Of a stretch of DNA of 64,000 bases, positions 1-56,957 are shown in pieces. Under the pieces are notes generated by a model. It searched no databases and was not told where the DNA came from. It was given only the letters and a program-made list of their open reading frames with translations. The stretch's first letter is position 1. Each line of letters begins with the position of its first letter. The position numbers were made by a program, and so were the translations under genes. This DNA comes from Auriscalpium vulgare (lineage: Eukaryota; Basidiomycota; Agaricomycetes; Russulales; Auriscalpiaceae): assembly GCA_019915015.1 (NCBI GenBank), contig JAHBBC010000004.1:930001-994000 (forward strand). Reading direction: 5' to 3'.

Positions 1-515
1 ACACATTTCCTTGTTACAGTAAGAGAAGCCGGAGGACTCAGTCCTCGGCTCCCGCTTCGAAGCTCAAGCCTCGCCGCTGCTCGCACACTTTATCCGCAAC
101 ACCGCTCGGGAGCTCCCTCACCCGACCAACGCCTCCCAGTCCGACTCTGGAACGCGACGCGCGGCGAGGGCGCGTAGGAACGCGATCCCGACGTCGTTCG
201 GGGTCACCGAACGGCGCCTCGGCCGAGCGCGCAGGAAGAATACCTCGATCGCGAGTCGCTTGGGCGTTCATCGAGGGGCTCATGGTGCTTGAGGGCGGCG
301 TGCTGGTGATGCAGGGACTGCGTCTCGCTCGCTGTGGAGGGTGAGCACCTCGCATGTGACTACGCGCACGTGTCGTCTGCCAGCTGACTTTGTGCCCTCA
401 GAGCGACGACAAGGACGACGGAGGCCGGAACGGCGACGACGAGGAGCCCCAGGGACTCGCCTTTGACGAGCAGTTGCTCGACTTGGACCGGCGGGTTCGC
501 GCCTCTGTAGCGTAA
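1..515 (+). CDS. 3' end of an unrecognised gene with acidic C-terminus (partial)
   Basis: The gene runs in from the left edge. The last exon is clear: acceptor ending at 401, then 402-515 encodes 37 residues rich in Asp/Glu and ends in TAA. A consistent upstream path is an exon to about 172 (reading EDSVLGSRFEAQASPLL), a 26-nt exon 315-340 and the final exon, all joined in phase by GT-AG introns. The exon at the left edge is the least certain, because it needs an acceptor near 23. No domain is recognisable. The acidic tail resembles those of two other predicted proteins in the window (27-32 kb and 38-40 kb), but this is compositional only. Moderate confidence in the last exon, low in the rest. 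Confidence 0.4.
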
Positions 516-884
516 CAGGCGCGCACTTGCATTATCTTGTACCTAGTAGCATGACTATACATTGTGATACCTATGTAAAGCCTCGTACATTAGAATACCT
601 TTGGAAAAACGTGGGGTACATTAGAACAGCATTATAAAGGGTTATAATCTGCCGCGCGTATTACAGCCGCTGAAATCGGCTGTAACCGGCTGTGACATTT
701 CGAGGTTTTGCGCGGCCTGCACTCTACCCCGTTCGTCGAGCCCCGCGCCGGCGTACATGCGTACATGTAGTACTGCTGTGGCGCACTGCCGCACTTGGCC
801 CCTGGGTAGTCGTTTCCCCGGGCCGCTCCCTCCATGTGCTCTACACACTGACCGGCTCCGTCGACGACGACAACGACGACGAGC

Positions 885-1125
885 CCCTCGCCCGTAAGCA
901 CCGTCTGCTCGTCATCGAAAAGTTTACTCACCAATTGTTATCAGGGAGCTCATTTCGCGCGGCAAAAACCAAGCAAACGGGCCGAGGACGCCCCTATCCT
1001 CCTTTCTCCTCCGCGAGTCTCTCGTCACGGTGCGGCTCCCCACCTCTGTGGGCCGTGAGCACCGTCAGCTAGTCATAGAGAACGTTTCTCACCAATTGTT
1101 CTCACAGAGGTCATTCTGCGCGGAG
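885..1125. repeat. Imperfect tandem duplication upstream of the F-box gene
   Basis: Two copies of a roughly 155-bp unit. Both contain a GTAAGC/GTGAGC-ACCGTC block followed about 30 bp later by CTCACCAATTGTT and a TCATT-CGCGCGG-like block. The second copy ends directly before the start codon of the F-box gene, so part of that gene's 5' leader derives from the duplication. Confidence 0.6.
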
Positions 1126-1133
1126 TTGCCTTG

Positions 1134-2675
1134 ATGCGTCTTGCTAGTGCCGTCCCGATTGCACGCCTGCCGCCTGAGATCATCAGCCTCATCTTCTCCA
1201 TCCTCTCCTCAGTCGACCGTCCGAACTCTAATCGATATCTGGACCACAGACGCAGGCGGGTCAGGTACAAGCTGGGCTGGGTGACCGTCACCCACGTCTG
1301 CCAGCGCTGGCGCTCCATCGCCCTACTCAATCCCTCTCTCTGGGCATCCGCCATCGAGGTCCCGTCCGTGCTCGGCGAGCGTTGGGCCGCGCTCTTCGTT
1401 ACCCGCGCCCACAACTTGCCGCTAACAGTTTGGGAAGATTTTCCCGTTGTCAACCATGGTGTGGCGGACCGCGATACCTCGTTCATCGGCGCCAATATCG
1501 GGACCATCATGCACCTGCGCACCTACCTCACTTCCGCACGCGTACTCTGCCAGCTCGCGCCGCTCCTTCACACCCTACATATCCAAGTTCATGACCGCCA
1601 ACCGCTCCCGGATGCCCTGCCAGTGCCATTGTTCTGCGGTGCTGCAAGCGTGCCGGAGTTGCGGCACCTGTCTGTGACCACGTTTCGACCGAAGCACTGG
1701 ACACCACTGCTGTGCGCGCAGCTCGTCTCGGTTGATATGAAATTTACCGATATCCTGGACAACGCAGAAGTTGCCTCCATCTTGGCCCCGATGGCGAGGA
1801 TGCCCACGCTGGAGCGGCTGTCACTGCGAGTGGCACTGGATGACCCTGACGGGGTGCCGCCAACCCTGCTGCCTGCACTGCGACACCTCACCCTGAGGGA
1901 CACTGTTGACGAAGTACTGCCATTCCTCGCCCGTCTCGAACTTCCTGCGGATGTCCGTCTTACTTGCTATGTCACAAACTGTGAGTACGGCTGGGCGGAT
2001 GGACTCCCTGCACTCCTCCCGGCGATGATGACATGCGCCCGCGCCACCGCCATCTCGCGCGTCGATGTCAGGCAGGCGCCGCGGGTCCCTTTCCAGAGGG
2101 GTCAAGTGCCGTGTCTACAAGACGACGGATATCCGGATGTGGAGGTGGGAGCGTGGCGCAGCGGAGATACGGACGGCGCACCCGCTCTGACGGTTCGGTT
2201 CAGCGAGTGGGAGAACGTCCCGGTCGTGTTGGAGTCTCTTTTATCGACGCACCTGGAGGAGCTCGCTGTCGCAGGCGATCAGTTCGACGCTGCGTGGTTC
2301 GATGCCCTTGGGAGTGCACCTTGTCTGCGCCTCGTCACTCTCACAGGTGGCGTGGTGCGTCAATTTTGCGCTGCGCTCGAGAGCACGCCGGGCCTCATAC
2401 CTGTGCTCTCCAAGATCGTGGTCAAAATCCAGGGGCGTTCTCTGGCTCTGAGCATTCTGCAGGACGCACTGACGCAGCTCCTCCCTGCCCACACAGCGCT
2501 GAGGGAGCTCGAGGTGGTAGGGTCTGACGAGGACGAGGCGTATACGCGCATGCTGCGGGAAGCTGTGCCCGAACTGGCGATTTGGTGGCGCAAGCCGGAG
2601 CCCGAGGAGGAGGTGGTGGCAGAGGAAGAGGACTACTCGGACGGGTATTCGGACACGATTACATCAACGCAGTAA
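1134..2675 (+). CDS. F-box-like protein (basidiomycete long form)
   Basis: Uninterrupted frame of 513 residues from ATG 1134 (a TTG lies just before it) to TAA. Residues about 10-68 match the basidiomycete F-box-like domain: LPPEIISLIFSIL, then VTHVCQRWRSIALLNPSLWAS. This family is expected to dock the protein on Skp1 of an SCF ubiquitin ligase. The remaining 440 residues look like the usual degenerate leucine-rich substrate-recognition region, with repeated L-x-x-L and HL-L spacings and no catalytic motif. The C-terminus is acidic (PEEEVVAEEEDYSDGYSD). The gene has no introns, as is common for this expanded family. The substrate cannot be inferred. The F-box call is confident; the biological role is unknown. 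Confidence 0.85.
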   Translation: MRLASAVPIARLPPEIISLIFSILSSVDRPNSNRYLDHRRRRVRYKLGWVTVTHVCQRWRSIALLNPSLWASAIEVPSVLGERWAALFVTRAHNLPLTVWEDFPVVNHGVADRDTSFIGANIGTIMHLRTYLTSARVLCQLAPLLHTLHIQVHDRQPLPDALPVPLFCGAASVPELRHLSVTTFRPKHWTPLLCAQLVSVDMKFTDILDNAEVASILAPMARMPTLERLSLRVALDDPDGVPPTLLPALRHLTLRDTVDEVLPFLARLELPADVRLTCYVTNCEYGWADGLPALLPAMMTCARATAISRVDVRQAPRVPFQRGQVPCLQDDGYPDVEVGAWRSGDTDGAPALTVRFSEWENVPVVLESLLSTHLEELAVAGDQFDAAWFDALGSAPCLRLVTLTGGVVRQFCAALESTPGLIPVLSKIVVKIQGRSLALSILQDALTQLLPAHTALRELEVVGSDEDEAYTRMLREAVPELAIWWRKPEPEEEVVAEEEDYSDGYSDTITSTQ

Positions 2676-4117
2676 TGACCGCGAGTGCCTCCGGTGAGGC
2701 TGTGCTTTTACACTGTGTAATGACCATATCTGAATGTATTTGGTGCAACCAGTTGGGCGCCGATATTTGAGGCTGCGAACCAGCATGAGTTGAAGAAGAT
2801 CGACGTGAAGAAAATTACGTCGAGCGACGCGCGCCAGCTCGAGAAGGAGCACGGCACGGAAAAAGGGTGGCGAGGAGGCGACCGGCGATGGCTCTGAGTA
2901 TTGCGGTTCCCTGCCGTCCCCTGTTGTAGTCATTCCCTTCTGGCACGGGAAGTTACCTTTCATCTTCGATCATCGTATCTGGCCGGCTGGCGTGGGCAGC
3001 TCATCTACGTCGCAACTCAACTAGATACCAAAAAAAAAGCATTCCTTGTTGCTATGTACAGTTTGTGTATAAAATAAGTACAGGGTCAAGTCAAACGTTT
3101 GCAGCATACCAGGCGGCCGCAGCCCTCAGCGTAGCATGTACCGAAAAATGTGCACCCTCGTAGTCAAGAATATAGCTCGAAATGCGGTCGCTACAAAGTA
3201 AGTCAGCTGAAGAGCTGGGTAAATTGGAGAGAGCGCTCACAATGACCCCGTAAATATGCCCCTTTGCCGTCCCTTAACGATAGCATAGACAGACTGTGGT
3301 TCAGGTTCGGGTATGGGCGCGGACCAGATGCTTCTCAACACTGCACTGAGTACTTATACTCCCCAGTCATTCCTCCTCAATACCTCACTGTTGCCATTTG
3401 CATGCTCTCCACTCTCCATACCGCGAGTTCGTCTGGCTGCCACGAGAGAACCGGCCAAGTCGGAGGATATGTGCTCAGCACATGGATGGTGACAGGCGTC
3501 CGACAGATGCAAGACAAGAAGCAAGAAGATTGCATTGAAACATAGGAAGTCTTCTACATGAAGCCCCACCCGGAGATGAAAGGAGCGAGTGGTGGAAAGA
3601 GGAAGGGCGGGGCGGTCACCCAGAAAGGGCGGCGGCGGGATGATCAACGCTGTCAGCCATATCGAAGCACGGACATATCGGCCGGCGGGCCGGCGGGCCG
3701 GCAAGAAATGAATTAAGTAAGCTGTGGGACCGCCTGCTCAGCCAAATTCGGCGTTCCAAACCAAGGGCCACTGCCCGATGCGGATGATTAAGTAGCAAAA
3801 ATGTTTACAAACCAAAAGTGACTGCCCGGGGGCGGCTGATTCATTGCCAAAAACATGCTGATGAAGCAAAAAGAGGCCAGTTTCCACGAAACAGCAACGA
3901 AAAACAGCCAGAAACCAAGAATTTCAAATTCTACAGCCAGCAGATGTATACGTGACCGTCACACTTTCGATTCACACCAAAAATCGCGAAGACCTGGCCT
4001 AACGGACCAGGAATATTCTACTTTCTGGGGCCTGGACAAATACGCAACTCGCCCACAGAGGGGAATTCGATACGGCATTCCGCGTTGAGCTTCCCGTTAA
4101 GTGCCCATCTGTAGCTA
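2676..4117. other. No supported gene
   Basis: Intergenic between two converging genes. On the + strand about 2768-2899 reads as a lysine/glutamate-rich stretch (EAANQHELKKIDVKK) with codon use like a coding relic, but it has no start or flanking exon. A short GCCGGCGG triplication lies near 3681-3703. I see nothing else of note. Confidence 0.4.
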
Positions 4118-4195
4118 CATAACATACCCGGCGCTCACCCAGGATAAGGTAAGGCGGGTGCGTCACTCGAGGGGTATGGATGACCAAGGCCGGAT
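4118..4195. repeat. Short dispersed repeat (copy 1 of 3)
   Basis: About 70 bp sharing the blocks GGATAAGGT and ACTCGAGGGG-ATGGATG with sequences near 16028-16125 and 48110-48208. In this copy the reverse strand supplies the last codons and stop of the transcription-factor gene on the minus strand. Confidence 0.55.
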
Positions 4196-7100
4196 GTGTG
4201 AAGACCAGCGGGTTTGTCGCGAGTAGTCGCGGGGCCGGCACTGAGGACACGGCGTGCTTTCTTCCGTAAATGGCGTTGGTTTTGAAACCTACGCTTCCAG
4301 TGGGTTACAATAAGCAGCTGGGAACATGGGCCCGCACCAGTTGTGAACACTATCCGCCGACATGTCTAATTTCTTCGCCAACGCTTCACGATCCACCGTC
4401 GTCGGCTTCGCGTTACGTTGGAAGGCTTTCATCAGCTTCTCTAGCTGAAACTCATCGGCACGCTTGCGCTTGGCACCCTTGCGCTTCTTCTTGACCTCGT
4501 TGGCAATGGGGTCCCGAGCTCGCGTGCAGGGCAGCTGAGCACCGCTCCCGACGGGCGTCGTTATTTCAACCGACGCATCATGATGGCCTATCTGAGATGT
4601 CGGCCGTGGAGAATCTGGAAAGCATTGGGGGACGTGAGCGGGAATCGCGAAAGCGGAGTCAGAACACGCACAGGGAGTATCCTGGTCAGACATCATCTTC
4701 TCAATTCGGTGACTACCAAGACCCCCAGGTCCTCTCGACTCTTCAAAGCTGGTTGCATGAAATGCATGACAATCAAGGATAAATATCCCTCTCTTGCGAT
4801 GCTCTTCGCGAGTCAGAGAAACCGGGTATTGACACACCCTGTGCTGTTTCAAACACCTGCTGCATTCTGGTCGACCTCCGCTACACTACATTATATATGC
4901 CCACAGTTAGCTCGTAGATCTAGATGTTCACATTATACGAGTACACTCACCCTACGTCTATCCCGAAAACAATTGAGACAAGCCTGACCTGGCGACAGAC
5001 GTTGTGGGAACTCTTCTGCAAACCGAGGTAGATCGTCTTCAGTATAAACGCCGTGCTCTACGACGTCTGGATCTTGCAGCCTCGGCACGTAATCCTCTCC
5101 CAGACAATCCTCTCCCAGACGAACCACTTCACTCGGAGTAAGTGGATTCATCCATGCAAGTATAAGCTTGTCGTCAACTTGATTATGGGAAGTTGGATCA
5201 CAGATAATGGAGTTGTTGAAATCGTTCGCAAGGACTTTCGTGAGGTCAGTGACGTCGATTTCGTTTAATGCCGGTGCGCCGCCTCCGCCGCCTGCTCCCG
5301 CTGCCATCGAAATTGGAAGGAATGGGCGAGTTGCAGCATCTGCAGGGGCATCGGTGAGCTCCATGACGGAGAGCGGCCGAGAGTGATGCGGTGACTCGCT
5401 GCCGTCGCCCCCAGCAGTCCCAAGGCGCTCTGCGGCATCATCGTCTCCTGGGAAGCGGCCTGCGAGATTGGTGACGCGACAGTCCACTTGGTGCGCCCTC
5501 TCTTTCTTCTGTGATTGGCGTTGGTTTTGAGACCTACGGTTCCAGTGAGTTACAATGAAGGTAGATGGGAAGATGGGCCCGCACCAGATCTGAACACTAC
5601 GCGCCGACATGTCTAATTCCTGCGCCAAAGCTACACGCTCCTCCGTCGACGGCATTGCGTTACTTTGGCAGGCTTTGATCAGCACTTCTAGCTGAGACTG
5701 ATTGGCACGCTTGCGCTTCTTCTTGACCTCGTTGGCAATGGGGTCCCGAGATCGCGCGTATTTTGTGAGGTCATTGATGACCGTGCCGTCGATTTCGTTT
5801 GATGCTGGTGCGCCGCCTGCTCCCGCTGCCTCTGGAATTGGTAAAAATGGTCGAGTTGCTGCATCTGCATCGGCGGCATTGCTGGAGAGCGGCCGAGATC
5901 GAGCGGCTGACTCGCTGCCGTCGCCCCCAGCGCCAAGGCGCTCCAGTGCGGCATCATCGTCTCCTGGGAAAGGTCGAGGGACGGATGCAGCGGGTCGGTC
6001 GGCGAGCGCCGGCGCGTGGAAGGAAAAGGGAGAGTCGTATCCGGATGCGCCAAGTTCTCCTGCATCTCCGGGTTGGAAGGCGGGCCCGCCGAGGCCTGCG
6101 TGTGCGGCGGGTGGCTGAAGTGCGGCGGCGGCGGGGTGCGCCGGCTCACGGGCGCGTTCACCATGAGGGTGTTGAGAGGATAAATAATCGCTGAGCCCGC
6201 GAATCCCGCCCAATCCAGGTCTTCCGCCCGGGAAATCGCCGAGAGCAAGGTCGGTGGAGTAGTACGCTGTGGGGGCGGTACCGAGACGTGTAGCGGTGGA
6301 CGGCCGTCCCGGGCCCGGTAGGGGAAGTAGCGGTTGTACATGTGCAGAGGAGACGCCAGGAGTTCCGATAGCTCCTGCATCTAAATTCGGAGGCATGGGT
6401 TCTAGACATTCTAATGACCCTTCATCGTGTTGTGCTCGGACACAAGAGACGGAAGTCGTGAACGCCTTCGAGTTCGAGAGATGGCCATCGACATCGCCCA
6501 ACGGAGGATCGACGGCAAGATGAAGATCCTGGACGCTCGGATAATAACTTGTGTGATGGCTTGCCGACTTGATAAATGAGCCCGCAAAAGGAAAGGTATG
6601 TTCGATCGGTGTGTGCGTTGTGAGAGGGAAAGCGATGTCGTCCGCGGAAGGAATTGCGGCGCTATTCGCTAAGGAGAGCAACATCTCGTTTTCCATCGTT
6701 CTACAGCCATCGGCTGTCGCAATCGAACTCCTGCCGAAATATGTGGTCTGCCCGAGCTGTGGCAGGTCGATAGAATAGCTGGGGATGGGTTTGGGAATGA
6801 TCTCCTGCTCAGAGAGCTGGGGATAGCCGAACAATCCGACGACATCGCGGTCGAACAACCGCAACGCCGCCGTTTGCGACGGCGCGTCTACATGATTAGA
6901 AGTTTTCTCTGGTCAGTCTGCGGGTCTGAACAGCACAGCATGCACGTACCGTAGTCGAGCACAAAGTCGGATTTATGATGAAGCACGTTACCCTCCGCAA
7001 GAGGATGATCGCCGGTCCAAGCGGGGCCTCCAATTTCCCCCTCGTCCTGAGGACATAGAGAATCGTCGGCGGTGTATGTGAGGAAACGGACACAATCATG

Positions 7101-7307
7101 CGCCCCATAGACTATGATGACGGACTCCGTCGGTCAGTCCATCTCCTTCTGTTAAGCACCACCGTACTCACCGCTATGGGAAACTCCTTGACCTATCCAG
7201 CCTGGAAAGTCTCCAGTTGAAACTGCGGCTCCGGCATCGTCCCATACTTGCTCGAACAGAGGGAGATGTTCAGCAAAGGAAGTAAAGTCGAGCGTGCGAT
7301 CTGACAT
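4135..7307 (-). CDS. Transcription factor with homeodomain - Zn(II)2Cys6 - homeodomain architecture
   Basis: Predicted nuclear DNA-binding protein of 961 aa. Six exons join in phase: 7172-7307, 6950-7111, 5585-6887, 4951-5533, 4338-4885, 4135-4288. HD1 (about residues 487-546) has the Hom1-like core MPSTEERVALAQELDMSARS; removal of the 51-nt intron 5534-5584 gives recognition helix WSQNQR (W534). The zinc cluster uses C719, C722, C729, C736, C739 and C746, exact CX2CX6CX6CX2CX6C, and is completed only by splicing 4886-4950. HD2 (about 864-923) has a complete WFQNQR helix after splicing 4289-4337. HD1 lies between two copies of a segment beginning FPGDDDAA, so the domain sits inside an internal duplication. 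HD1 has Ser where Phe49 is usual, so it may bind weakly. A second copy of the gene without homeodomains lies at 54970-56957. Exon structure is confident; function is inferred from domains. Confidence 0.8.
5250..5985. repeat. Direct repeats flanking the first homeodomain exon region
   Basis: About 215-bp direct repeats at roughly 5250-5465 and 5765-5980, inside the coding region. They share GTCGATTTCGTTT-ATGC-GGTGCGCCGCC near one end and GGCATCATCGTCTCCTGGGAA near the other. The sequence between them encodes homeodomain 1 and its intron. The block B gene has only one truncated copy of this segment and no homeodomain. Confidence 0.7.
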
Positions 7308-8640
7308 GATCGTACGAGGTAAAAAGCGCGATCCGGCGGAAGCTGAAACAGCGACGTAGCACAACACATGTGCCGCGCACGGTCACTTACTACTGCCTTT
7401 CGTCTACCTCTTCCTCCATCGCACATAAGGACACCTTTCAGATCTTCTTCAACCTATACTTAATCAGTTTCTATCGGTCTGACGCGCTATCAACCCGGTC
7501 ATCCTCACTGTTGATTTCCTGCTCGTACCTTAGTATCTTCGTAGTTCACGACGCCTTTATTCACGACCGGGATGTCTTGGGGACTTATCAAACAGTTAAC
7601 TCACCTTCCCCATTGTGCATCGCCCACGGTAAGCACCCGTTCGCACCGTAAAGCCGTAAATTCACAAGCTGACGAGCTCGACGGCCCCAACACCCCGGTT
7701 AGTCGGCTCGTATACTTTGATCGGATCCGACTAACCTGCTACCGTCAGACACCCCGCATCGGTCGTCATTCGGAGAAGCCGTCGTCCTATGCATGCGATG
7801 AGCTGTACGCCTAATCATCTCATATGCTTCATCGCACTCGCCTGTAAGTCGCCCTTCCTTCAATACACAGGAATGTTTTTCACCGCATATATCTTCTATA
7901 TTGCCACTTCATCTTCAACTTGAGATAGCCGCAGGCCGCAGCGCGGCTGAAAGAGTGACCGTGAGCGCATTATGCAAACCAAACGGGCGCACTCACCTGA
8001 AAAATCCAATTGATTTTCACCTCACATCTTCCTATACCGCCGTATATCCTTCGCATGGGCAGCGCAGCTGAAAGAGCAATCGTAAGCGCATCATGCATCA
8101 ACCAAGCGGGCACACTCACCTAAAATCTAATTGATTTTCACCCCACAGATCTCCTATGTCGCCACATATTGTTCGCATGAGCAAGCCGCAGGCGGCGTGG
8201 GTTAGATCACCTAGTGATTCCGACCCATCCCATGCGCTCTCCACCGTAGCCGTCAAACACCCAACGTCCAACCATGAGCGTATACAATCGCATACCTTGC
8301 AATATACGTTCGATCTGCATTTATATCGGTCCTGCTGATAACATAAGTTTAACGATATTGCTGTTTCAGATACTCACTTTGCACTCCTTTCCTCAGGAAT
8401 CACGACCGCATGTGCTTTCTAACCAACCAGCAGGCCATCCTACTTACAGATCCTACACATCAGATCCTCATGAGTCGTACAAACACTCACCGATATACGC
8501 GCACAACGTCCATCTATCCTCCGACACATATTGCATAGGCCACACAAATGTTCCAATGACGGTAGTTTTCTAAATGCTACAAACATGTAACCCACTCACC
8601 TGCTACATTTTGACAAAAAATCTGCTTTTTGTTTAGCAGG
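7308..8640. repeat. Intergenic region with intron-like tandem units
   Basis: No gene is supported. Three degenerate units of about 125-135 bp at roughly 7880-8200 share AATTGATTTTCACC, a TATATC-CGCC block, GCAGCGCGGCTGAAAG and CACTCACCTGAAAA. Each carries splice-like motifs on one or both strands. Related units occur in block B at about 57530-57800. The region separates the divergent transcription factor and C2H2 relic and should contain the factor's promoter, but I see no clear promoter motif. Confidence 0.45.
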
Positions 8641-9800
8641 AATGTCCCAGCAGGTCAACGAGAGACGACACACCAGCTGTCTTCAGCAAGGCTGCTTCAC
8701 TCCGGTGACCAGACCGCTCTCGCACCCCGCGCCCTCCTTGCTCCTGTCCAAGCCGTTCCGCTGCACGAAGTCAAACTGCAAAAAAGTCGTACAAGCTGGC
8801 GAGCGGCCTCGAGTACCACAGGACACACGGCTCGGTACGACTTGAAGCCGTCGAAGGACCTCGAGAGTGTCGCGAGCCTGTTCGCAGAGACGGATGTGAA
8901 CGGCGGCGAGGGCACGAGCAACGCTCTCGCACCATGCGCCTGCTCCTGTCCCTCGCTGCCCGAAGCCAAACTGCAAAAAAAAAAGTCGTACAAGCAGGCG
9001 AACGGCTTCAAGTACCACGGTTCACAGTGCACGCGGCTCGTGCTTGAAGCCGTCGAAGGAACTCGATAGGGTCGTGAGCCTGCTCGCAGAGAAGGGTGTG
9101 GACGGCGGTGAGGCCGCGGGCAACATGACGAAAGGAGAGATGCAGCGGCTTGGGCCAAGCCAGGGCCAAGCGGAACCCGCGCAAGCCGGGATCTAGAACT
9201 TGAAGGCCTCCTCTTCCACGTCCACGACGCTCTCGCATCCTACCCTCTCCTTGCTCCTGTCCAACCAAACTGCAACAAGGCCAACAAGCACTGGGCGAAC
9301 GGCTTCAAGTACCACAGTACACACGGCTCGTGCGACTTGAAGCCGTCGAAGGACCTCGAACTTGAAGGCCTCCTCTTCCACGTCCACGACGCTCTCGCAT
9401 CCTACCCTCTCCTTGCTCCTGTCCAACCAAACTGCAACAAGGCCAACAAGCACTGGGCGAACGGCTTCGAGTACCACAGTACACACGGCTCGTGCGACTT
9501 GAAGCCGTCGAAGGACCTCGAGAGAAGGGTGCGAAAGGTGGTTAGGCGCGGGCAACAAGGGGCAACATGGCCTAGGGAGAGATGCGCCAGCGACCGCTGC
9601 GATGCGAATGCCAGGCGCCAGCGGAGGTATAAGAGCATGGACGGTCTCCGTGCGTACTTTTTCCCTACCATGCACTCAGCGACTATGTACATGCGTACTA
9701 TACAGTGCATCACTACGGCATCCGAGCACGGCGAGCAAGGGCTGCAGCTCCTGTCAGAGAGAGATGCATCAACTCAAGTGCGAGTGACTAGTGACTGCGC
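8640..9800 (+). pseudogene. Decayed C2H2 zinc-finger gene with amplified finger unit (block A)
   Basis: Four copies of a C2H2 finger segment can be read at about 8745, 8960, 9260 and 9420. The first gives KPFRCTKSNCKK then, after a one-base shift in an A run, SYKLASGLEYHRTHG. Fungal proteins of this type read SYKQANGLKYH-THG. Further down, RRYKSMDGLRA and SEHGEQGLQLLSE match the second finger and the HSG-HG tail of the same family. A-run expansion (6 A and 10 A in the first two copies), shifts and stops make the frame unusable. The relic is divergent from the transcription-factor gene, and the same pairing occurs in block B. Confident as a relic; which ancestral gene is unknown. Confidence 0.7.
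9197..9522. repeat. Near-perfect tandem repeat, 161-bp unit x 2
   Basis: The unit begins AACTTGAAGGCCTCCTCTTC and includes one finger-derived segment of the C2H2 relic. The two copies are almost identical, so this amplification is recent. Confidence 0.75.
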
Positions 9801-10165
9801 ACGATGCGTGGGCACCTCTGGCGACCAATGGCTCCTACCATGCCCAATCCCTTAACACACGAAGGCCCGCCGCCGGATAAGTACATATCAACCCTGCCCT
9901 CTCACACATCACCGCATCATATCTCAGCGTTATAATAAACGGCGGGGAATCTGACTTTCAGCAGACAAGACGTGTTGGTCTACGTACCTGCTCACCATGA
10001 CACCATCACAGCTTTCAGTTTGGATGATCTCGTCATTGATCCATCGCCGTCTCCATTGCTAGTCGTCTCTGCTCATCGAGGGGGGTGTTGTCAGTGGAGT
10101 GCACGGAAAGGCTGAAGTGACTCCGAGTCATCCTCAGTCTACTTTTATCCACGATTAATGTCATA

Positions 10166-10629
10166 ACCGATTTCATAACAGGATATGATGTACTACTGTA
10201 CTGCAAATCAATTCCACTGTGCCCTTAAGCATCACGTACAATCGGCCGGGGCTGTCCAATTGACGACGAGCTGGCGGGGTCTTGGGCCAGTGAGGACCCC
10301 ATGGCCATTGCATTGCCATATACCCCAGATCCTAGCTTCTGGTGGCAGACGAGGTTATAAAAGCGGTACCATGATTTTGACATGTAAAAAGCCACGCTCG
10401 CAGCAATGCCCTGTCGACTACAAGGCGTCACAGTTAGATGGGACTGCAAGAATGCTATGCTAAGTAATACAACGCACCTTTCGACAGCATCGATCGTGGC
10501 ACCGTCGCTCATGTTTCCAGTGGCGTCGGGGCTTGTTGGTGGTGATGGAGAGCTCAGATGGTGGGACGGATGGCGCGGACGGCAGACGAGATTATATGAA
10601 AGCGGTACAATGATTTAGATGTCTAAAAG
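10166..10629. other. No supported gene; imperfect duplication
   Basis: Two related segments near 10345-10395 and 10585-10636 share GACGAG-TTATA and AAGCGGTAC-ATGATTT. No convincing coding region. Confidence 0.4.
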
Positions 10630-13490: not shown

Positions 13491-14089
13491 CGTCTACGCT
13501 GCTATTTCTGTTGTAAAGGCTGGCGCGTCCATGTCCGCAGTGGCTAGTGGGCCGTGCGCTCGCGCTGGAGGAGGTTGAGTGGGGACAGGTAGTCGGCGGT
13601 GAGCAGCGCGGGCGCGGAAGGGCCTGTACATGCGCTAGTGAGCGGTGAGGACTACTTCTGTACGCGGCACGCACCTTGCTTCATGCCCTTGTTCAGTACG
13701 CGGGCCACCCTTTCAGTTCGTCTAGACCCTTCTTTCCGCTGTTGAGCGTAGCCCTCAGCGTCGTGTTACTCTGCGCAGCTGGTCGAGGAGCCCACGGCAC
13801 TCCTCCCAACGGCAGTTTGCCTCGTCTGTGGACACGCGCAGCGAAAGGCGTGGGCCGCGTGCGGTTGCGTGCATGCACTTTGGGCCTTTATGCGCCTGCA
13901 AGGAACGTGCGACGTGTCGACGGTGCAGAAGATGGGGGTGCGCCCTCGTCTTTGCGCTCGCGGAAGGCGCGCCGGGCGCCTTGCGGTTCTGCTCTGCGCG
14001 CTTGCTCAGATGGTGCGTTTCCCGGCAGCGGCGCTCTGCATGGCCTGGGTGCTCGCGGTGGATGAGCGGGGCAGGTGGGAAGACGGAAG

Positions 14090-14400
14090 CATCTTCCTCT
14101 CGCGTCAGTGTACATACAGTCACAGAATTTGAAGTCCTCTTTGGTCAGACACTGGTACTTCTCGTCCTTGTCGGCCAAGCTCTTATCCGGCATGCCGAGT
14201 GCGACGAGAGCCGGACGCGAGCGCCGGTACGTCGTCGTCTCTCGCGCAATGGCGTCGTCTTTGCGGTGCGCCATGGACTTTGTTCGCGTCTAGACGTAGC
14301 GAAGTAGGCGGCGCCCATGGGCAGAGCAAAGTCGGCGAAATCCATGGGGTTGATTTTCTGACTCAGGTGGAAATTGCCATCTGTGGCGTAGTACAAAGGA
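14090..14400 (-). pseudogene. KDZ-type transposase relic (D1 copy)
   Basis: Two pieces of a KDZ (Kyakuja-Dileera-Zisupton) transposase follow each other on the minus strand. The first reads YYATDGNFHLSQK then ALPMGAAYFA, like the family's core D-GNFHL block. The second, in another frame, reads YRRSRPALVALGMP, KYQCLTKEDFK and MYTDARGR, like the C-terminal part. The intervening 150 or more residues are missing. It is cut at the D1 boundary. The family call rests on remembered motifs. Confidence 0.5.
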
Positions 14401-14589
14401 ACCTGCGCGACGCGTTATGAGCACGCCCACCGAGTCCTCGCGTCTTCCACTGAGGATCCATGTTTGTGCCGAGATTGCGTAGGCAAAGCACGGCGATGGA
14501 ACGCGGTGACATGTTGCAAAGTACGAGGCAGGCGTCTTCCAAAATCGTGGACAGCAGACTGGATGAGGAAAATGATGACGTTCATGAGG

Positions 14590-15420
14590 CGATTCGCTAG
14601 GGCTTGGATACGTCGTTCAATTTCCTAATGACGCCCGGAAAAGTCGACTTGCTGTCAGCCCGTCATTCGGCTGCGATGCCAGGCAGACCTGCGACGACCA
14701 AGCTGCAGAGGTTACTTTGCCGGTCTTCCATTTGTAACGATCGTCCGAGGCTTTGGTTCTGATCAAGGTGATCAGACAACATATTATACGAATACTATGC
14801 GGTTTAGACATACCTGCACACCGAGTATTTGCTCCATCCGGCTAAGACTCTGCATGACGGTGTTGGAGCCCACGGGGAGGACGTCCAATGTGGCCTGCTG
14901 AACCAACGACGTAATTGATTCGTACGGAGATTAGATTCAAGATGCGCGCTGGGCAGAAACAATCAGCAGACAGTCCTGCCACAGCACGTCGTAGACTCAC
15001 GGTGATCTCAAGTGTCGACCTTTTGACCATGAAGTATGGCGACAGCGGACCTGTCTGAAGCTCATCGGGTTCAACACAAGTCGTAGGCCATCTGTCAGGT
15101 TCATGAGCGCCCAGCAGCAGTTCGCGATCATACGCGGGGTGTCTGAAAGCCCATTGCCGAGCACGGAGACGAGCGGGTGCAGGTGCACTTCGGGCTTGAT
15201 TGAGGTGATCAGGTTCTCGCATACGTGGCCGAGCGTCCGGCAATGTCTTTGACGTGCTCAAGCGTATCGTGCATCATGTCGATGAGGATCGGGAGCGCTT
15301 GATTGACGAGCAGCTGCGGGTCCGGCCCGACGAGGATCGATCCAAAGGCCATCAAGCACGCCAGTCGGGCGACTTGATGTTCGCCTCAACTACGGACATG
15401 CCTTCAAGCAGACCCTGGTG
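14590..15420 (-). pseudogene. Importin-beta (Kap95-like) pseudogene, D1 copy
   Basis: Several frames, in the right order for a fungal karyopherin beta-1, read EANIKSPDW, VMAFGSILVGPDPQ, QALPILIDMMHDTLEHVKD, HLHPLVSVLGNGLSDTP, ANCCWALMNLTDGL, TGPLSPYF, ATLDVLPVGSNTVMQSLSRM and TILEDACLV. These HEAT repeats normally bind importin-alpha or cargo at the pore. Reading requires frame changes and contains stops, so the piece is dead. Gaps between blocks that fit introns suggest a genomic DNA origin. It lies directly upstream, on the same strand, of the KDZ relic. An identical relic lies in D2. Confidence 0.8.
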
Positions 15421-16027
15421 ATCACACTTTCAGGGCGACACCCCAGACGTGGCGCCTATCGGGAGGGGGCTGCAAATGCGCGCAGGGTGTCTAGCACGCG
15501 GCCTGGTGGAGGTCGTTGGCTTGTTGACGACGTCCAAGGAGGGGGGCGTTCCGGGGAAGCGTCCAGAGCCAATCCCGCAGTGTGGACGGCGTCCAGGAGG
15601 CGCTACACGGTGTCGACGGCGTCCAGAAGCCCGTCGAGGCAAATACCAGGCGGTGCTGCTCGATGTGATCTATAGGGGTGTCGACGGAAACCGAACCGGG
15701 TCACAGAATGATATGCGGCGTCCGCTCGATAACACGAGGCCAAGGCTCGCGCGCGCGTCGCCAGCGAGTTCATAGGTATTTTCGTGTCCGTTCAGCCAGA
15801 GGTGGAGGGCGATTTGGGCCGCTCGAACCGGTCCACGCTTTGGACAATTTCCACAGTAACTCAGTCGATTAACGACGACGTCAATGTAGATGTAGATGCG
15901 GTGTGCTGGAGAAGTCATCCAATGAAATGTGTCCAGAGCGTCGCGCCGCATGTCTGCGACTTTTTTTTCTTTTTTTTTGGAATCCAGATTATTGCCTACT
16001 CGGGGCGCGCGGCCCCATGCGGGACGT

Positions 16028-16125
16028 GATACATATGAGCCCCCCGCCCCGCGCTCTCCCGGGATAAGGTGAAGCTGGTGCGAGGGCGCCGTAACTCGAG
16101 GGGCATGGATGTCCAACACCGGATG
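16028..16125. repeat. Short dispersed repeat (copy 2 of 3)
   Basis: Shares GGATAAGGTGAAG/GGATAAGGTAAGG and ACTCGAGGGG-ATGGATG blocks with 4118-4195; carried inside D1, with the third copy in D2. Confidence 0.55.
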
Positions 16126-17299
16126 AACGAATCATCGAGGGATGTCTGCGACGTCCATCGATGACGCGGCATGTACCTGGGCATCCAGGTCGTCCTGAGA
16201 GGCGGATGTGGCGTCGAGAATGATGCCGAGGCGTATTGACGGCGTCCTGCAGGGCAGGAACCAACCCACAGTGATGCTGAGGCATCTCGACTGCAGGGCA
16301 GGAACCAACCCACAACCATGTGCTACAAACTGCCGCGCCGCGCATAGCACGGCTTGTAGAAGACGGTGGGACCTAAATGCGGTACGAATACGCGCTGGGA
16401 GGGTGCGCAGGGTGTCCAATAGTGCCGCTTGCCGTTGGAAGGCTGGAATGCGCGACGGAGAACATCCACGAGCTCAGTGGCTTGTCGACGACGTCCATTG
16501 AGGTGTGGCGTGCACGCGCGAATCGTCCGCCGTCCGCACGCTTCGGGCGGCGCAAACACATCCAGAAGGGCGTTGCATGCTGTCAGAGGGCACCAGGACT
16601 ACCGCTTGGATATGAACGGCGTTGTGGGGTGTACGCGGGAGACGAAGATGCTTGCAACAATGTTCAAGGTGATTCCGCAGAGATTAAGGCGCAAGGTTTG
16701 TGAAGAGCCGCTTCATGGGGATGAAAGATCACGGCGCCACTGTCTACCTGCAATTTCAGCGATCTCGCAAAACAGATAAGACAACCACGATGCTTACCTG
16801 GCGCTTGGAACGAACGTTAAGGCCGCTGAGTTCGAAACGCGCGGTAGGCTCGACCTTAGGCTTTGTGCTCGAATGCTCGAAGGGCAACCACTACTAAAAG
16901 TACGGTCACCTCACAGGTCTTCGTAACAGTGAAGTATGACATACCTCAGCGGGAAGTTGAATATGACGTGCCAATCCACTGAAATCACGGGCGTTGACGG
17001 GACACGCTACTATCGGACGTGATTGGTGTATTGGTTGATGTCAGAGCTCTTGCGAGTGACGTCGGCCTTCAGACGCTCGATCTATTCTTTTAGCGGATCG
17101 TTGCGCGGACCAAGAGCTTCCGTCCTTCTGTGTCTGGCTCTGTTACGCGGCGGAGGGATGTAAAGACTTACAGATCCAAGAGTCGTCGCGATGTAGACAT
17201 GCGCAACGTAGCCATCGAGGGAAGACCTCTCGAGGCTGGATCTGCAGAGACTACTCCCTCCTCTCGTTTCGACACACGTCGATGCGTCGAGTACAAGAT

Positions 17300-18060
17300 C
17301 GCGGAGGAGAGCTAATCCATGCGAGCGAAGTCAGGTTGACTGGAACATCAGGACTCGTTCCTCCTGTGCCTAGCTTTGTTACGCCGGCCTCGGTGTGCAT
17401 GCCAGGTGGCTCGGCGTAGCCCGATGACGGCGGGCTGGGGGTGGCGTACGGTGGGTAGGCGGCGAGAGAGGGAATGTGCCGGGGCAAGGAAGATATGGAC
17501 GAGAGCCGGTGAGTCGTCCATCTCGAGCTCCATGTCGTCATCGGGGTCGAAGTAGCCCGGCCGCCCGAGCTGGTACAGCTGGTGGTAGGAGGGAGGGCCT
17601 GGAAGTGGCTGCTGGGAAGAAGGGTCGAGGACGACGTCGTGGTGCTCCTCGGAGTGATCGACGAGGGCGTGGAGGTCAGGCTGTACGCAGCGTGTAGCTG
17701 CAGCACTAGAAAACCGGTTAGCAACGAAGACGGTGGAGAGACGGGTCGCCTTACGAGCTCCTCGAGGATGCTGTCACGATCGCTCTCGATAGGAAACCTG
17801 TCGCCGGGACGCACTCTAGAGGGCCGAGGAGCTCCCCGGAGAACTCGCCTGCGTGGCGCAGGGAGTCAAAAATCCGGCCGGCGTAGCTGAAGGGATTCTC
17901 TGCGAAGCCCTGTACGGGGAGGGCGTGATGGCTGCAGGACGCCATGGGGTTCAATTGCGATGGATAGTTGCATGGCGAAGGCCCACTCTGGCACCGCGTA
18001 AGTTCACTTGGAGTGACTAAACGTGGGACGGTTACGTAAATTACTATGGAGCCGGGCACA
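17300..18060 (-). pseudogene. Unrecognised gene with a frameshift; 3' part duplicated in D2
   Basis: The minus strand reads ATRCVQPDLHALVDHSEEHH, then DPDDDMELEMDDSPA, and in another frame SSISSLPRHIPSLAAY to VTKLGTGGTSPDVPVNL. In D2 (49334-49616) one C is absent near 49590, and the ELEMDDSP and SSISSLPRHI segments are in one frame. D1 therefore carries a one-base insertion that breaks a frame still open in D2, although D2 lacks the 5' half. An upstream piece reads GFAENPFSYAGRIFDSLRHA. No family recognised. Confidence 0.4.
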
Positions 18061-27253: not shown

Positions 27254-30200
27254 TTAGGTACGTGCCGACGAGGAAGCGCTGCCTTGCTTCCCACCCTCAG
27301 CGCGATTCGCATCCGCCCTCGTTGATTTCTTCTTCGGTCTGCCGGCGCTCCCAGGGCCATGCTCGGGATCTGTTCTCCCCTTGAACTTCGCGGCCATCCT
27401 AGGGCATGTTAGACGGAAGAGAAGGCGATAGCGGCCGGGACACTCACTCTAGGACGGAGGCCGTGAGTTCGAGGTTAACAGCGGGTTGCATATTCAGAGA
27501 TTTTTTCTCCGCCCGCGCCAAGGCCTCTAGGTATGCCGCATCATAGCAGTTAATGGGCAGGCCCTTGCACACAGGTGCATCCTTGTCCACTCGATCCGAC
27601 TGTACGCGCTCATGAGGGAAATTACCAGATACCGGCTTGCCGTTAGAATTCCAGTGAAGGCTGAGGTGGATGTCGTCGAGAATGTGCAAGAAGTCCTTAA
27701 ACTCTTTAGAGCGCCAGGGAAGTTGTTTCTTCACGTATCGAGGCTTTCCATTCTTCTTGTTGCGGTGGTCAGACTCGTCTCCACTCATAGCGTCGATTAC
27801 GAGGTATTTCGATAGCGATTTCGCCCGGCGCTGGAGGTCAGGATGGACGAACAAGGCCATACCCCGACGATTGGCAAGCTGACGTGCAGGTGAGCATGAG
27901 TTACCGAGAAGGCAGGCATTCATAGCTCACCGCGGATAGACGAGTTCTGCGCGCGTTGACCCTCCCCTTGTCCTGCATCGCTTGGGCCTGTGCCTCGCTC
28001 AGCTGTTCGACATTCGCCTTTCGCCATTGCATTTGAAGCGCGCCCAAGTGTACGATGAATTTCCTCTTCAGCTCATCCTCGTCGATAGACTTGCCCTCAA
28101 TGGTTCCGCCGAATTTCTTCAGGAAGCTCTGGGCGAATAAGTCGGATGCCCGCTCGTTCCATGCGCAAGACAAATTGGATTTCAAGTAGACCCTGAATCG
28201 TTTTTGCTTCGGGCCACCGGTGTGATGCACATTGAAACGTTCAAGCTCCTCTGGCGTGGGCTGATCGGGTAGAGGGTCCTTAGGTGTCTTCCTTCCCATC
28301 ATCGTCTGGGTGTGGCTACGTATCCGCTTCTACAATAATCGGTGAGTATCGCGGAATGACAGAAGAGGGCGACTGACAAACCTTGATAGCGAGATCTGCC
28401 GCATCGTGGGGCTTAGGGAAAGGCCCTTCTCGGGGTCGCCGAGCGCGCCTCTCGATGGGATTCAGGGTTGGCGGCTCCTTGGTAGCGATGACTTCGCCGA
28501 CATGCCGAAGTAGCTGCGCGATGTCGCCTTTAGTAACCGTGGCCTGCTCGGGAGTCAGTAACGAGCATGTAAACATGAAGAGGCACTGACGTTGGCAGCT
28601 TGCTTGAGCTCATCGATGACCAGATTCTGAGGACAGCCAATAAGACTTGGCGTACATATTCCAGATCGCTGCTTACAATGCGCTCCAATTTGGCGTTCTG
28701 TGTTGCCTCATCGTCTTCCTGAGAGCCTGCGTCGTCTGAGCCCATCGCGTTCGCATGCGAACGCGCCCTCTGCTTGCCTTTGCCCTCTCGTGACTGCTTG
28801 TTGGTCGACTGTGGGCGATGGAATCCTCCCTCGTCTTTCGAGCGCCGCTGCCCCTTGGACTTCGACGCTGACGGCTCCGTCGGAGCTTCGGCCCCGTCGC
28901 TCGAGCCATCGGAGATATCGCCCATGTCGAATTCCTCGCCAGAGTCTCCAGAAGTCTCTGCTTTGCGGGAGCCATTGGTATCGGACGTCGACGAATCTGC
29001 CGGACTCCTGAACCCGTCGCTGACGCCGTCGGAGACACCTCCCATGTCGACGTCCTCGTCTTGATGGGGCGGTGCTTTGCGAGGGCGATCTGTCGAACCT
29101 CCAAGCCCGTCACTGACGCCATCATCTCCCATGTCGATGTCCTCGTCTAGGTCTTCAGTGAGCGGTGCTTTGCGGGAGCCGTTTGAGCGCGAGTGTTTCT
29201 TGGTCGGCTTTGCTCCCTTGGAGTTTGGCCGAGAGGCACCACTGTCCGACCTCTCTCTCCTGTTGTCGCGGTCGTCACGCTCGAGTTTCTCTTCGTCGTC
29301 GACGCTGTCCTCTTCCTCATCGTGTTCCTCATCCTCCCCATCCTCACTGTCCTCGTCGTCCCCACTGTCGCCACCATCGTCGCCGCCTTCCTCATCGGCC
29401 ATCTCCACATCATCCTCGACATCCTCACTGCCCTCGTCGTCGCCCTTGTCGCCGCCGTCGCCGCCGCCGTCCTCATCGGCCATCTCCGCATCGTCACTAC
29501 CCTCGTCTTCACCCTTGTCGCCGCCACCGCCGTCGGCGCCGTCCTCATCGGCCATATCCGCATCGTCCTCGACATCCTCACTGTCCTCTTCGTCGTCGGC
29601 ACCGTCCTCTTCGTCGTCGGCACCGTCCTCTTCGTCGTCGGCACCGTCCTCTTCGTCGTCGGCACCGTCCTCTTCGTCGTCGGCACCGTCCTCTTCGTCG
29701 TCGGCACCGTCCTCTTCGTCGTCGTCAGCGCTGTCCTCTTCCTCATCTTGTTCGTCATCCTCGCCATCCTCACCGCCCTCGTCATCGCCCTTGTCGCCGC
29801 CGCCATTGCCGCCGTCCTCATTGGCCATCTCCGCATCATCCTCGACATCCACACTGTCCACTTCGTCGCCGTCCACTTCGTCGCCGTCCACTTCGTCGCC
29901 GTCCACTTCGTCGCCGTCCACTTCGTCCACTTCGTCGTCGTCGTCGTCGTCTTCGTCGTCGCCGTCGTCTTCGTCGTCGTCTTCGTCATCGCCTTCCCCT
30001 TCGTCATCGCCTTCCCCTTCGTCGTCGCCTTCCCCTTCGTCGTCGTCCCCTTCGTCGTCGCCGTCGTCTTCGTCGTCAGCGCTGTCCTCTTCCTCATCTT
30101 GTTCGTCATCCTCACAGCAAGGACCGTCGCCGCGGTCCTCATCGGCCATCCCCGCATCTTCGATGTCTTCGTCACTATCCTCGTCGTCGCCCTTGTCGCT

Positions 30201-46088: not shown

Positions 46089-46170
46089 TCTAATTGAGGA
46101 TGTAGTCCGGGCAATGTCAGCAAGCCGGCGAAAGGCGGCGGTCAGAATCGGTAGTGGTAAATGTGCATAG

Positions 46171-46481
46171 CATCTTCCTCTCGCGTCAGTGTACATACAG
46201 TCACAGAATTTGAAGTCCTCTTTGGTCAGACACTGGTACTTCTCGTCCTTGTCGGCCAAGCTCTTATCCGGCATGCCGAGTGCGACGAGAGCCGGACGCG
46301 AGCGCCGGTACGTCGTCGTCTCTCGCGCAATGGCGTCGTCTTTGCGGTGCGCCATGGACTTTGTTCGCGTCTAGACGTAGCGAAGTAGGCGGCGCCCATG
46401 GGCAGAGCAAAGTCGGCGAAATCCATGGGGTTGATTTTCTGACTCAGGTGGAAATTGCCATCTGTGGCGTAGTACAAAGGA
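46171..46481 (-). pseudogene. KDZ-type transposase relic (D2 copy)
   Basis: Same sequence as 14090-14400 in D1, including DGNFHLSQK and YRRSRPALVALG segments in two frames. At the boundary the frame runs on into different flanking sequence, showing the copy was cut at this point. Confidence 0.5.
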
Positions 46482-46670
46482 ACCTGCGCGACGCGTTATG
46501 AGCACGCCCACCAAGTCCTCGCGTCTTCCACTGAGGATCCATGTTTGTGCCGAGATTGCGTAGGCAAAGCACGGCGATGGAACGCGGTGACATGTTGCAA
46601 AGTACGAGGCAGGCGTCTTCCAAAATCGTGGACAGCAGACTGGATGAGGAAAATGATGACGTTCATGAGG

Positions 46671-47501
46671 CGATTCGCTAGGGCTTGGATACGTCGTTCA
46701 ATTTCCTAATGACGCCCGGAAAAGTCGACTTGCTGTCAGCCCGTCATTCGGCTGCGATGCCAGGCAGACCTGCGACGACCAAGCTGCAGAGGTTACTTTG
46801 CCGGTCTTCCATTTGTAACGATCGTCCGAGGCTTTGGTTCTGATCAAGGTGATCAGACAACATATTATACGAATACTATGCGGTTTAGACATACCTGCAC
46901 ACCGAGTATTTGCTCCATCCGGCTAAGACTCTGCATGACGGTGTTGGAGCCCACGGGGAGGACGTCCAATGTGGCCTGCTGAACCAACGACGTAATTGAT
47001 TCGTACGGAGATTAGATTCAAGATGCGCGCTGGGCAGAAACAATCAGCAGACAGTCCTGCCACAGCACGTCGTAGACTCACGGTGATCTCAAGTGTCGAC
47101 CTTTTGACCATGAAGTATGGCGACAGCGGACCTGTCTGAAGCTCATCGGGTTCAACACAAGTCGTAGGCCATCTGTCAGGTTCATGAGCGCCCAGCAGCA
47201 GTTCGCGATCATACGCGGGGTGTCTGAAAGCCCATTGCCGAGCACGGAGACGAGCGGGTGCAGGTGCACTTCGGGCTTGATTGAGGTGATCAGGTTCTCG
47301 CATACGTGGCCGAGCGTCCGGCAATGTCTTTGACGTGCTCAAGCGTATCGTGCATCATGTCGATGAGGATCGGGAGCGCTTGATTGACGAGCAGCTGCGG
47401 GTCCGGCCCGACGAGGATCGATCCAAAGGCCATCAAGCACGCCAGTCGGGCGACTTGATGTTCGCCTCAACTACGGACATGCCTTCAAGCAGACCCTGGT
47501 G
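46671..47501 (-). pseudogene. Importin-beta (Kap95-like) pseudogene, D2 copy
   Basis: Same relic as at 14590-15420, with the same frame breaks, so the decay predates the D1/D2 duplication. Confidence 0.8.
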
Positions 47502-54969: not shown

Positions 54970-56957
54970 TTATATATATGATACCTCAGAGCGAAAAAGT
55001 AATAATACCAGGGATTCATCTTCCGCCAAGGCTTTACGGGATGGACAGGCGTGTTCGGGAAACGTCCCTGCCTCTCGGCTACCTTCAGGTCCTCTCCACT
55101 CTTCAAAACTCGGCGCAATTATCGCGGAGGATTCATGACAATCTAGGATAGATGATTCTTCGCGAGTTAGCGGACCAGACGCCAAGAACGAGGAAAGTAT
55201 ATCGTCCGGATCAATCGGATATTGACACGCCATGAGGTGTTTCAAACACCTTTCGCATTCTGGTCGACTTCCGCTACACTACATATATTCCACGATCAGC
55301 TCGGCTCACATCCGCAAGAATACGAGTACACTCACCCTACGTTTAAGCTGACGACAATAAAAACAAGCCCGACCATTCGACAGGCGTAGAAGTGAGAACT
55401 CTTCTGCGAACAGGGGTTGATCGTCTTCAGTATACACTCCCTGCTCGCCTGTCTCTTGCAGCCGCGGCTCGTAATCCTCTCCCAGACAAACCTCTCCCAG
55501 ACGAACCACTTCACTCGGAGTGAGTGGATTCGTCCATGCGACGCCTGTATCTAGCGCCCTCGGCTCATGCTCTAGCAAGCCCTCTCCCAGACGAATCACT
55601 TCACTCGGAGTAAGTGGATTCATCCATGCGAGTAAAACCTTGTCGTCATCTTGTAGACGTGATGAATCATTGATGAGCGTGAAGTCGCCCCCGGCAGTCC
55701 CAAGGCGCTCTCCGGCATCATCGTCTCCTGGGAAAGGTCGCTTGCGGAGGACCGATGCGGTGGGTCGGTCGGCGAGCGCCGGCGGGTGGAAGGAAAAGGG
55801 AGAGTCGCATCCGGATGCGCCAAGTTCTCCTGCATCTCCGGGTTGGAAGGCGGGCGCGCCGAGGCCCGCGTGTGCGACGGGTGGCTGGAGTTCGGCGGCG
55901 GAGGGGTGTGCCAGCGCACGGGGCCCGCGACGCCCCCCCAGTCCAGGTCCTCCGCCGCCGAACTCGCCGAGAGCAAGGTGGGCGGAGGAGTATGCTGCTG
56001 TGCCTGGTAGGGAAAATAGCGGGTCGGCGGGGATCCCCCAGTGGTGGGGTGGGGGGAGTGTCGAGGAAACGCCAGTACGGATGTTGAGGCTGTCCGAAAG
56101 AGACTGGACGATACCTCTTCCATTCGAGAGATAACCATCAACATCGCCCGACGGAGGATCGACGGCAAGAAAAAAGTCCTCGACGCTCTGATGATAACTC
56201 GTTTGATGGCTTGCAACTTGATTGGGCAAGGTATGTGCGTTCGGTGGAGGAATTTTGAGAGGGAAAGCGATGTCGTCCGCGGAAGTAATTGCGGCGCTAT
56301 TCGCGAAGGAGGGCAACATCTCATCTTCCATCGTTCTACCGCCATCGGTCGTCCCAATCGAACTTCTGCCAGAACATGAGGTCTGATAGAGCTGTTGCAA
56401 GTCGATGGAATGGCGGGGAACGGGTTTGGGGATGATCTCCTGATCAGGAAACTGGGGATGACCGCCATGGCAGAAGAATTCGACAACATCGCGCTCGAAT
56501 AACTGCGATGCCGCAAAGTATGAATAACCAGACCCAAGCGCTGCCGTTTGCGATGGCGCGTCTACACAATCAACAAAAAAAATCCGCTCAGTTCCGCGGG
56601 TCTGAATGGAGCACGGCATGCACATACCGTATTCAAGCACAACGTTGCCCTCCGCAGGACGATCATCGATCCAACCGGGGCCTCCAACCTCTCCCTTGTC
56701 CTGAGGAAATGACGAATCATCGTAGGTGGGATCTGGAAGGAGCCTGACACGGTCATTCATCCCATAGACTGTGATGACGGACGCCGTCGGTCAAAGTCTA
56801 TAACCTTTTAATGGGCAGCACCGCACTCACCACCATCGGCAAATAATCCATCGCTGGGCCAGCCTGGAAGGTCTTCGATTAAAACTGCGGCTCCAGCACC
56901 GTCCCATACTTCAGAGTAGTTAGCAAAAGTTTTAAAGTCGAGCGAGCGATCCAACAT
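54970..56957 (-). CDS. Zn(II)2Cys6 transcription factor, paralogue without homeodomains, 600 aa
   Basis: Four exons join in phase: 56831-56957, 56628-56768, 55336-56561, 54970-55278. The first exons match the block A gene closely (MLDRSLDF versus MSDRTLDF; PQDKGEVGGP versus PQDEGEIGGP; DAPSQTAAL). The zinc cluster uses C489, C492, C499, C506, C509 and C516, exact CX2CX6CX6CX2CX6C, and as in block A the third Cys is the first codon after an intron. The FPGDDDAG segment runs directly into the region before the cluster, with no homeodomain, and an NPLTPSEV-RLGE unit is duplicated. The C-terminus is short: the frame stops where block A continues into homeodomain 2, and degenerate matching sequence follows. 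Predicted nuclear regulator; targets unknown. Confidence 0.8.

Follow-up and report, generated by a model that had tools for sequence, protein, structure and literature searches.

A predicted homeodomain–zinc cluster–homeodomain gene in Auriscalpium vulgare, with likely sources of its parts in the same genome

A single predicted gene of Auriscalpium vulgare encodes a homeodomain (HD1), a Zn(II)2Cys6 cluster and a second homeodomain (HD2), in that order. It lies in a stretch of 64,000 nt (JAHBBC010000004.1, positions 930,001–994,000, assembly GCA_019915015.1), which is referred to here as the window. That the three domains are read in one frame had been proposed in the first-pass annotation of this DNA, and is supported by the gene model and by Pfam. 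The predicted protein thereby has two classes of DNA-binding domain, which is what is meant by a dual-specificity factor. On balance, this is probably a real and recently assembled chimeric transcription-factor gene, predicted to give one mRNA and to contact DNA via the Zn cluster and HD2. Relatives were sought in the whole assembly (51.6 Mb, 96 contigs), which contains the window on the contig abbreviated C4. What appears to be new here, as far as sequence can tell, is the HD–Zn–HD order together with a visible history of assembly; the combination of Zn cluster and homeodomain is itself known.

The gene model consists of six exons (7307–7172, 7111–6950, 6887–5585, 5533–4951, 4885–4338 and 4288–4135). 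Splicing them and translating to the stop codon at 4137–4135 bore out the earlier description of six in-phase exons and 961 residues. The four introns named in that description were upheld; the fifth (7171–7112), which is needed for six exons, was not named there. All five introns have GT..AG borders. Exons 3 and 4 are contained in a stop-free run of 659 aa, longer than any run (maximum 387) obtained when the window was simulated 40 times with a Markov-1 model, and thus the frame is not due to chance. In Pfam, the protein scored 88.5 bits for Homeodomain over two stretches and 26.9 bits for Zn_clus (residues 717–754; cut-off 21), the two homeodomains being 320 residues apart with the cluster in between. 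A Fungal_trans middle region is common in Zn(II)2Cys6 factors, but is not obligatory; Fungal_trans (PF04082) is absent among the seven Pfam families listed to E 1 for this protein, and the Pfam scan identified no activation or dimerisation domain. Among 7993 candidates scored, from a collection possibly poor in fungal proteins, no relative of the whole protein was found at E 0.001. The features of the gene and of its two sister genes, A and B, are collected in Table 1.

Table 1. Features of the window gene and its sister genes (window positions, unless a contig is named)
Feature	Position	Strand	Description
Whole gene model	4135..7307	-	6 exons, 961 aa; splicing, translation, Pfam
Shared N-terminal part	6338..7307	-	about the first 283 residues; common to sisters A and B
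Linker segment	5811..6337	-	about residues 284–459; 84% DNA identity to C22:781921–782473 (C2H2-like gene)
HD1	5503..5724	-	residues 488–544; contains intron 5584–5534; carries F20C and F49S when compared with sister A
HD1 intron	5534..5584	-	51 nt, without in-frame stop; copy of HD2 intron
Second copy of linker end (PGDDD...NEIDVTDLTK)	5241..5454	-	downstream of HD1; 77% identical to 5775–5970
Zn(II)2Cys6 cluster	4832..4980	-	residues 719–746; split by intron 4950–4886
C1-homeobox-like block	4258..4578	-	matches, in pieces, 3′ half of C1 homeobox gene (C1:1688.5k)
HD2	4258..4477	-	residues 865–921; WFQNQR; contains intron 4337–4289
Sister B	54970..56957	-	N-terminus, linker and Zn cluster (32.6 bits), 600 aa
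Sister A	C4:877.9–879.7k		N-terminus, linker and one homeodomain (59.9 bits); stop soon afterwards

The open frame could, by accident, hold two or three separate genes, with an A-like gene (N-terminus and HD1) followed by one for the Zn cluster and HD2. The two sisters lend this some substance, as A has a homeodomain only, with a stop shortly after it, and B has a Zn cluster only. However, there is no stop between HD1 and the Zn cluster, and exon 4 encodes the end of HD1 as well as the first half of the cluster; both domains therefore share one exon, and we regard separate genes as very unlikely.

The six cysteines of the cluster (PF00172) follow the canonical pattern CX2CX6CX6CX2CX6C, in line with the perfect cluster noted in the first-pass annotation, and all six are intact in the window gene and in sister B. 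It also proved correct that the cluster is completed only by splicing, and sister B has an intron in the same place. Judged by these sequences, the intron in the Zn cluster is better evidence for the gene model than are the introns in the homeodomains. A search of the whole genome for Zn_clus (23 matches) did not list the window gene, whose cluster is split by the intron; for the same reason, such a search cannot count other split clusters. Two further zinc-cluster-like pieces were seen. Immediately downstream of sister B (54760–54519, minus strand), splicing out an intron gives a second Zn cluster, which scores 23.3 bits (cut-off 21). The other piece is at C4:927.7k (minus strand), just outside the window, and its 17.9 bits fall short of that cut-off; it is 44% identical to the cluster of the window gene over 40 residues, and is also present at C63:7356 and C63:70307.

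Scanned alone, HD2 scored 56.7 bits against a cut-off of 22.9 (PF00046; profile positions 3–57 of 57), and it retains R5, L16, F20, W48, F49, N51 and R53 (numbering read off the spliced sequence). HD1 scored 50.2 bits over the full profile, but carries the two substitutions given in Table 1. Positions 20 and 49 of a homeodomain are places of the hydrophobic core. The WFQNQR of HD2 and the serine at position 49 of HD1, both pointed out in the first-pass annotation, were found as described, and the cysteine at position 20 is a second core change in HD1. Thus, HD1 is probably decaying; HD2 and the Zn cluster look intact.

The two homeodomains are related to each other. At the DNA level, 4257–4524 and 5502–5756 are 81% identical, including the introns (DNA repeats, tblastn); BLASTP of the window protein against itself gave the trivial full-length match alone, and the case for duplication thus rests on the DNA repeats and tblastn. 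In a tree of 14 homeodomains, with several rows spliced by hand and the support mark reached by only two of the 11 inner branches, HD1, HD2 and the homeodomain of sister A formed one clade (95/94), and outside it the most alike was that of a homeobox gene on contig C1, which may be Yox1/Yhp1-like. Independent origins of HD1 and HD2 are ruled out by the repeats and the tree, which point to one duplicated segment. Their introns are then one duplicated intron, and so are not independent evidence for the gene model. The intron at the same codon in both homeodomains had been offered as such evidence: it is indeed there, but it was duplicated with its segment. Nor is there support for three independent intron removals, as the two homeodomain introns are copies, and they resemble the intron of the C1 homeobox gene, which lies at the same codon. 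Similarity to the C1 gene enters this intron, and thus its shared place was inherited. When the HD1 intron is retained, the frame stays open, yet the homeodomain match stops at profile position 47. On another contig (C50:71337–72431, minus strand), three homeodomain matches are clustered within 1.1 kb. In each of them an intron seems to follow position 40 or so, and the three possibly form one triple-homeodomain gene.

A gene with two homeodomains in a basidiomycete brings to mind the mating-type (HD1/HD2) locus, for which the usual flanking gene is that for mitochondrial intermediate peptidase (MIP). The MIP gene would be expected among the peptidase M3 matches; all 16 of those listed are on contigs C12 and C3, and none is on C4; on C12, two other homeodomain matches lie about 27 kb from a peptidase M3 match. 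Basidiomycete mating loci are described as having divergently transcribed pairs of homeodomain genes (PMC4915694), whereas the window gene has both of its homeodomains in a single frame, and these two derive from the duplication of one segment. A mating-type gene, which we consider extremely improbable here, was rejected on the kinship of the two homeodomains and the location of the peptidase M3 matches.

By its similarities, the window gene is a patchwork, in which a zinc-cluster gene like sister B (N-terminus, linker, Zn cluster) is joined at the DNA level with pieces of a homeobox gene like that on C1, together with the intron. The B-like gene shares its linker with a C2H2-like gene on contig C22, and sister A is, on the same kind of comparison, one surviving fusion (N-terminus, linker, homeodomain). 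The C22 gene is called C2H2-like on the basis of two C2H2 matches that are below the cut-off (17.4 and 19.1 bits against 25.2) and two finger-like stretches. In the later part of the linker, the frame of the window gene differs from the long frame of the C22 gene, and the change follows an 8-bp gap that is common to sister B. From linker to HD1 (5455–6694), the window gene and sister A have 12 mismatches, at an identity of 95%; the homeodomain of sister A is without F20C and F49S, and its exon 2 has a frame shift unless a different acceptor is used. The blocks of both homeodomains correspond to the 3′ half of the C1 homeobox gene. DNA identity to this gene is 79% at HD1 and 75% at HD2, with flanking matches of 82% over 62 nt upstream of HD2 and 79% over 43 nt downstream of HD1. 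The similarity of the window gene to sister B ends at 4590 and that to the C1 gene begins at 4578. No homeodomain match was found in sister B, and a homeodomain remnant after its Zn cluster is unsupported, the sole local match (44, shuffle maximum 38) being one that precedes the homeodomain block. A stand-alone unit of linker, Zn cluster and homeodomain was not found in the assembly. Another copy of the C1 gene, at C22:491k, has diverged and has its similarity scattered over several frames; it is perhaps a pseudogene.

Presumably, the window gene came about through the placing of an A-like fusion ahead of such a linker–Zn cluster–homeodomain unit. The fusion is apparently young enough for a single genome still to show its junctions, its likely donors and the sisters with one domain each, and the order of the steps and any gain of function are therefore directly testable.

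There are three near-identical full copies of the gene: C4:934100–937400 (in the window), C4:1066923–1070223 (inverted) and C63:13707–17007. A partial copy lies at the end of C63 and has about 85 bases missing just past the stop codon (window about 4046–4130). C63:10001–20000 is identical to window 394–10393; C63 may represent a second haplotype or else an additional copy. The inverted copy has five differences from the window in 4013–7601; four are exonic (4188, 4199, 4674 and 5389), and three of these change the protein. It also has an insertion of about 0.8 kb upstream of the gene, with a 5-bp repeat at 7597–7601. A direct repeat of 3.45 kb (99.7% identical) is found at window 14088–17534 and 46169–49616, and again at C4:915011 and C63:57571; judging by the spacing of this repeat, a tandem duplication of about 61 kb may have arisen through it, and C63 may represent the junction. 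Thus, the copy number of the gene would seem to be changing through segmental duplication.

Could a transposon of the Helitron or Pack type, which captures gene fragments, have built the chimera? Fragments of several genes have been joined here with their introns and there are several copies, and gene-capturing Helitrons are described in Pleurotus ostreatus and other fungi (PMC4289320). However, inspection by eye of both ends of the inverted copy showed no terminal repeat or target duplication, and no transposase domain was found in the 10 of the 35 listed window ORFs scanned with Pfam. We consider a transposon origin, which would be compatible with a functional chimera, improbable. The one Pfam match among these 10 ORFs was to an F-box-like protein (window 1059–2672, 30 bits), with related DNA on several other contigs. 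The window also has an open frame of 1002 aa at 28533–31538, with internal repeats (29289–30287) and without a Pfam match, and it gave no match in Rfam.

Whether selection has acted on the gene can be judged from its indels and substitutions. In comparison with sister B (N-terminus and linker), 11 of the 15 exon indels are multiples of three, against 10 of 44 upstream; in comparison with sister A (N-terminus to HD1), the values are 5 of 6 and 3 of 32. Gaps at alignment ends were dropped from these counts (in exons, 1 of 16 and 2 of 8; upstream, 1 of 45 and 1 of 33). Pooled, 16 of 21 exon indels keep the frame against 13 of 76 upstream (Fisher p 7.5e-7), a p value that overstates independence, because both comparisons share the window gene. 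In the Zn part, which is outside the Fisher test, half of the exon indels (7 of 14, end gaps included) have a length divisible by three. The dN/dS values (NG86) are no more than mildly below 1 against the sisters, at 0.57 and 0.68 for B and 0.73 for A. Between HD1-type homeodomains and HD2, three comparisons gave 1.3, 1.5 and 2.0, one of them using the homeodomain of sister A and two the inverted copy. For the homeodomain regions, values were 0.2–0.4 against C1 and C10, where computable, and about 0.5 against the copy at C22:491k, with synonymous sites saturated in several of these comparisons. Of the 12 mismatches to sister A in 5455–6694, nine alter the protein, two of them being F20C and F49S; together with the three of four in the inverted copy, these make the case for constraint weaker. 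Thus, the frame has been kept in the N-terminal and linker exons, but not upstream, and constraint at the level of residues is weak.

These observations also bear on the idea that the chimeric gene has little or no function and is a decaying by-product of duplication, with a frame that is open since the gene is young. The dN/dS values near or above 1 between copies would fit this, as would the protein-changing mismatches to sister A, which are as frequent as expected without constraint and twice hit the core of HD1, and the three of four exon differences in the inverted copy that change the protein. So would the part of the linker that is out of frame relative to the C22 gene, and the frame shift in exon 2 of sister A. 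Against it are the frame-keeping exon indels, the six intact cysteines in the window gene and B, and the key residues kept by HD2. We give this idea an appreciable chance of being right, though not an even one.

If the gene is, as we favour, a functional chimera, it would be transcribed as one mRNA and, from its domain families, the protein would be nuclear and would contact DNA at a composite site through the Zn cluster and HD2, with HD1, as a decaying copy, contributing little. A further suggestion, which is tentative and somewhat doubtful, is that it could be a working HD–Zn–HD regulator born in this lineage, at a hot spot where a zinc cluster, the linker of a C2H2 gene and a homeobox recombine, the single-domain sisters being intermediates.

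Among known proteins, GAL4, PUT3 and LAC9 have a cysteine pattern in common with the cluster of the window gene. GAL4 is the best solved match to this cluster (E 4.6e-4), but its cluster starts near residue 8, whereas that of the window protein is internal, from residue 719 on, and without a Fungal_trans match. The homeobox gene at C1:1688.5k is similar to the window gene in its homeodomain (70% identity to HD1, 60% to HD2), in its intron at the same codon and in its flanks; however, it has one homeodomain, and no Zn cluster was seen in it. DUX4 has two homeodomains, as does the window gene, and among solved structures it gives the best match to HD2 (E 1.6e-10). The homeodomains of DUX4 are close together, unlike those of the window gene. 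DUX4 is described as a repeated gene, in D4Z4 units.

A close parallel is found in a survey of 191 fungal genomes by Shelest (2017, PMC5415576). The first-pass annotation had held that homeodomain and zinc-cluster families are normally separate in fungi, and at the level of domains this is wrong: the survey gives Zn_cluster+HD factors in 35 of the 191 genomes, where at least five were asked of a type, with up to three per genome, and Zn_cluster+C2H2-like+HD factors in 64, its HD class being named HTH/Homeodomain-like and perhaps broader than the classical homeodomains. Thus, the combination of domains was already known. The HD–Zn–HD order was not found described in the open-licence literature, as represented mostly by titles and the beginnings of abstracts. 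According to the survey, dual-domain factors have spread mostly by duplication rather than by new random fusion, and duplications and domain losses are described in another dual type, the C2H2+Zn cluster factors of A. nidulans. Like the Zn_cluster+HD factors of the survey (PMC5415576), the window gene has a Zn cluster and a homeodomain-class domain in one fungal protein; as these are described there, it is set apart by having a homeodomain on each side of the cluster, and by sharing its genome with likely donors and with sisters that have one domain each.
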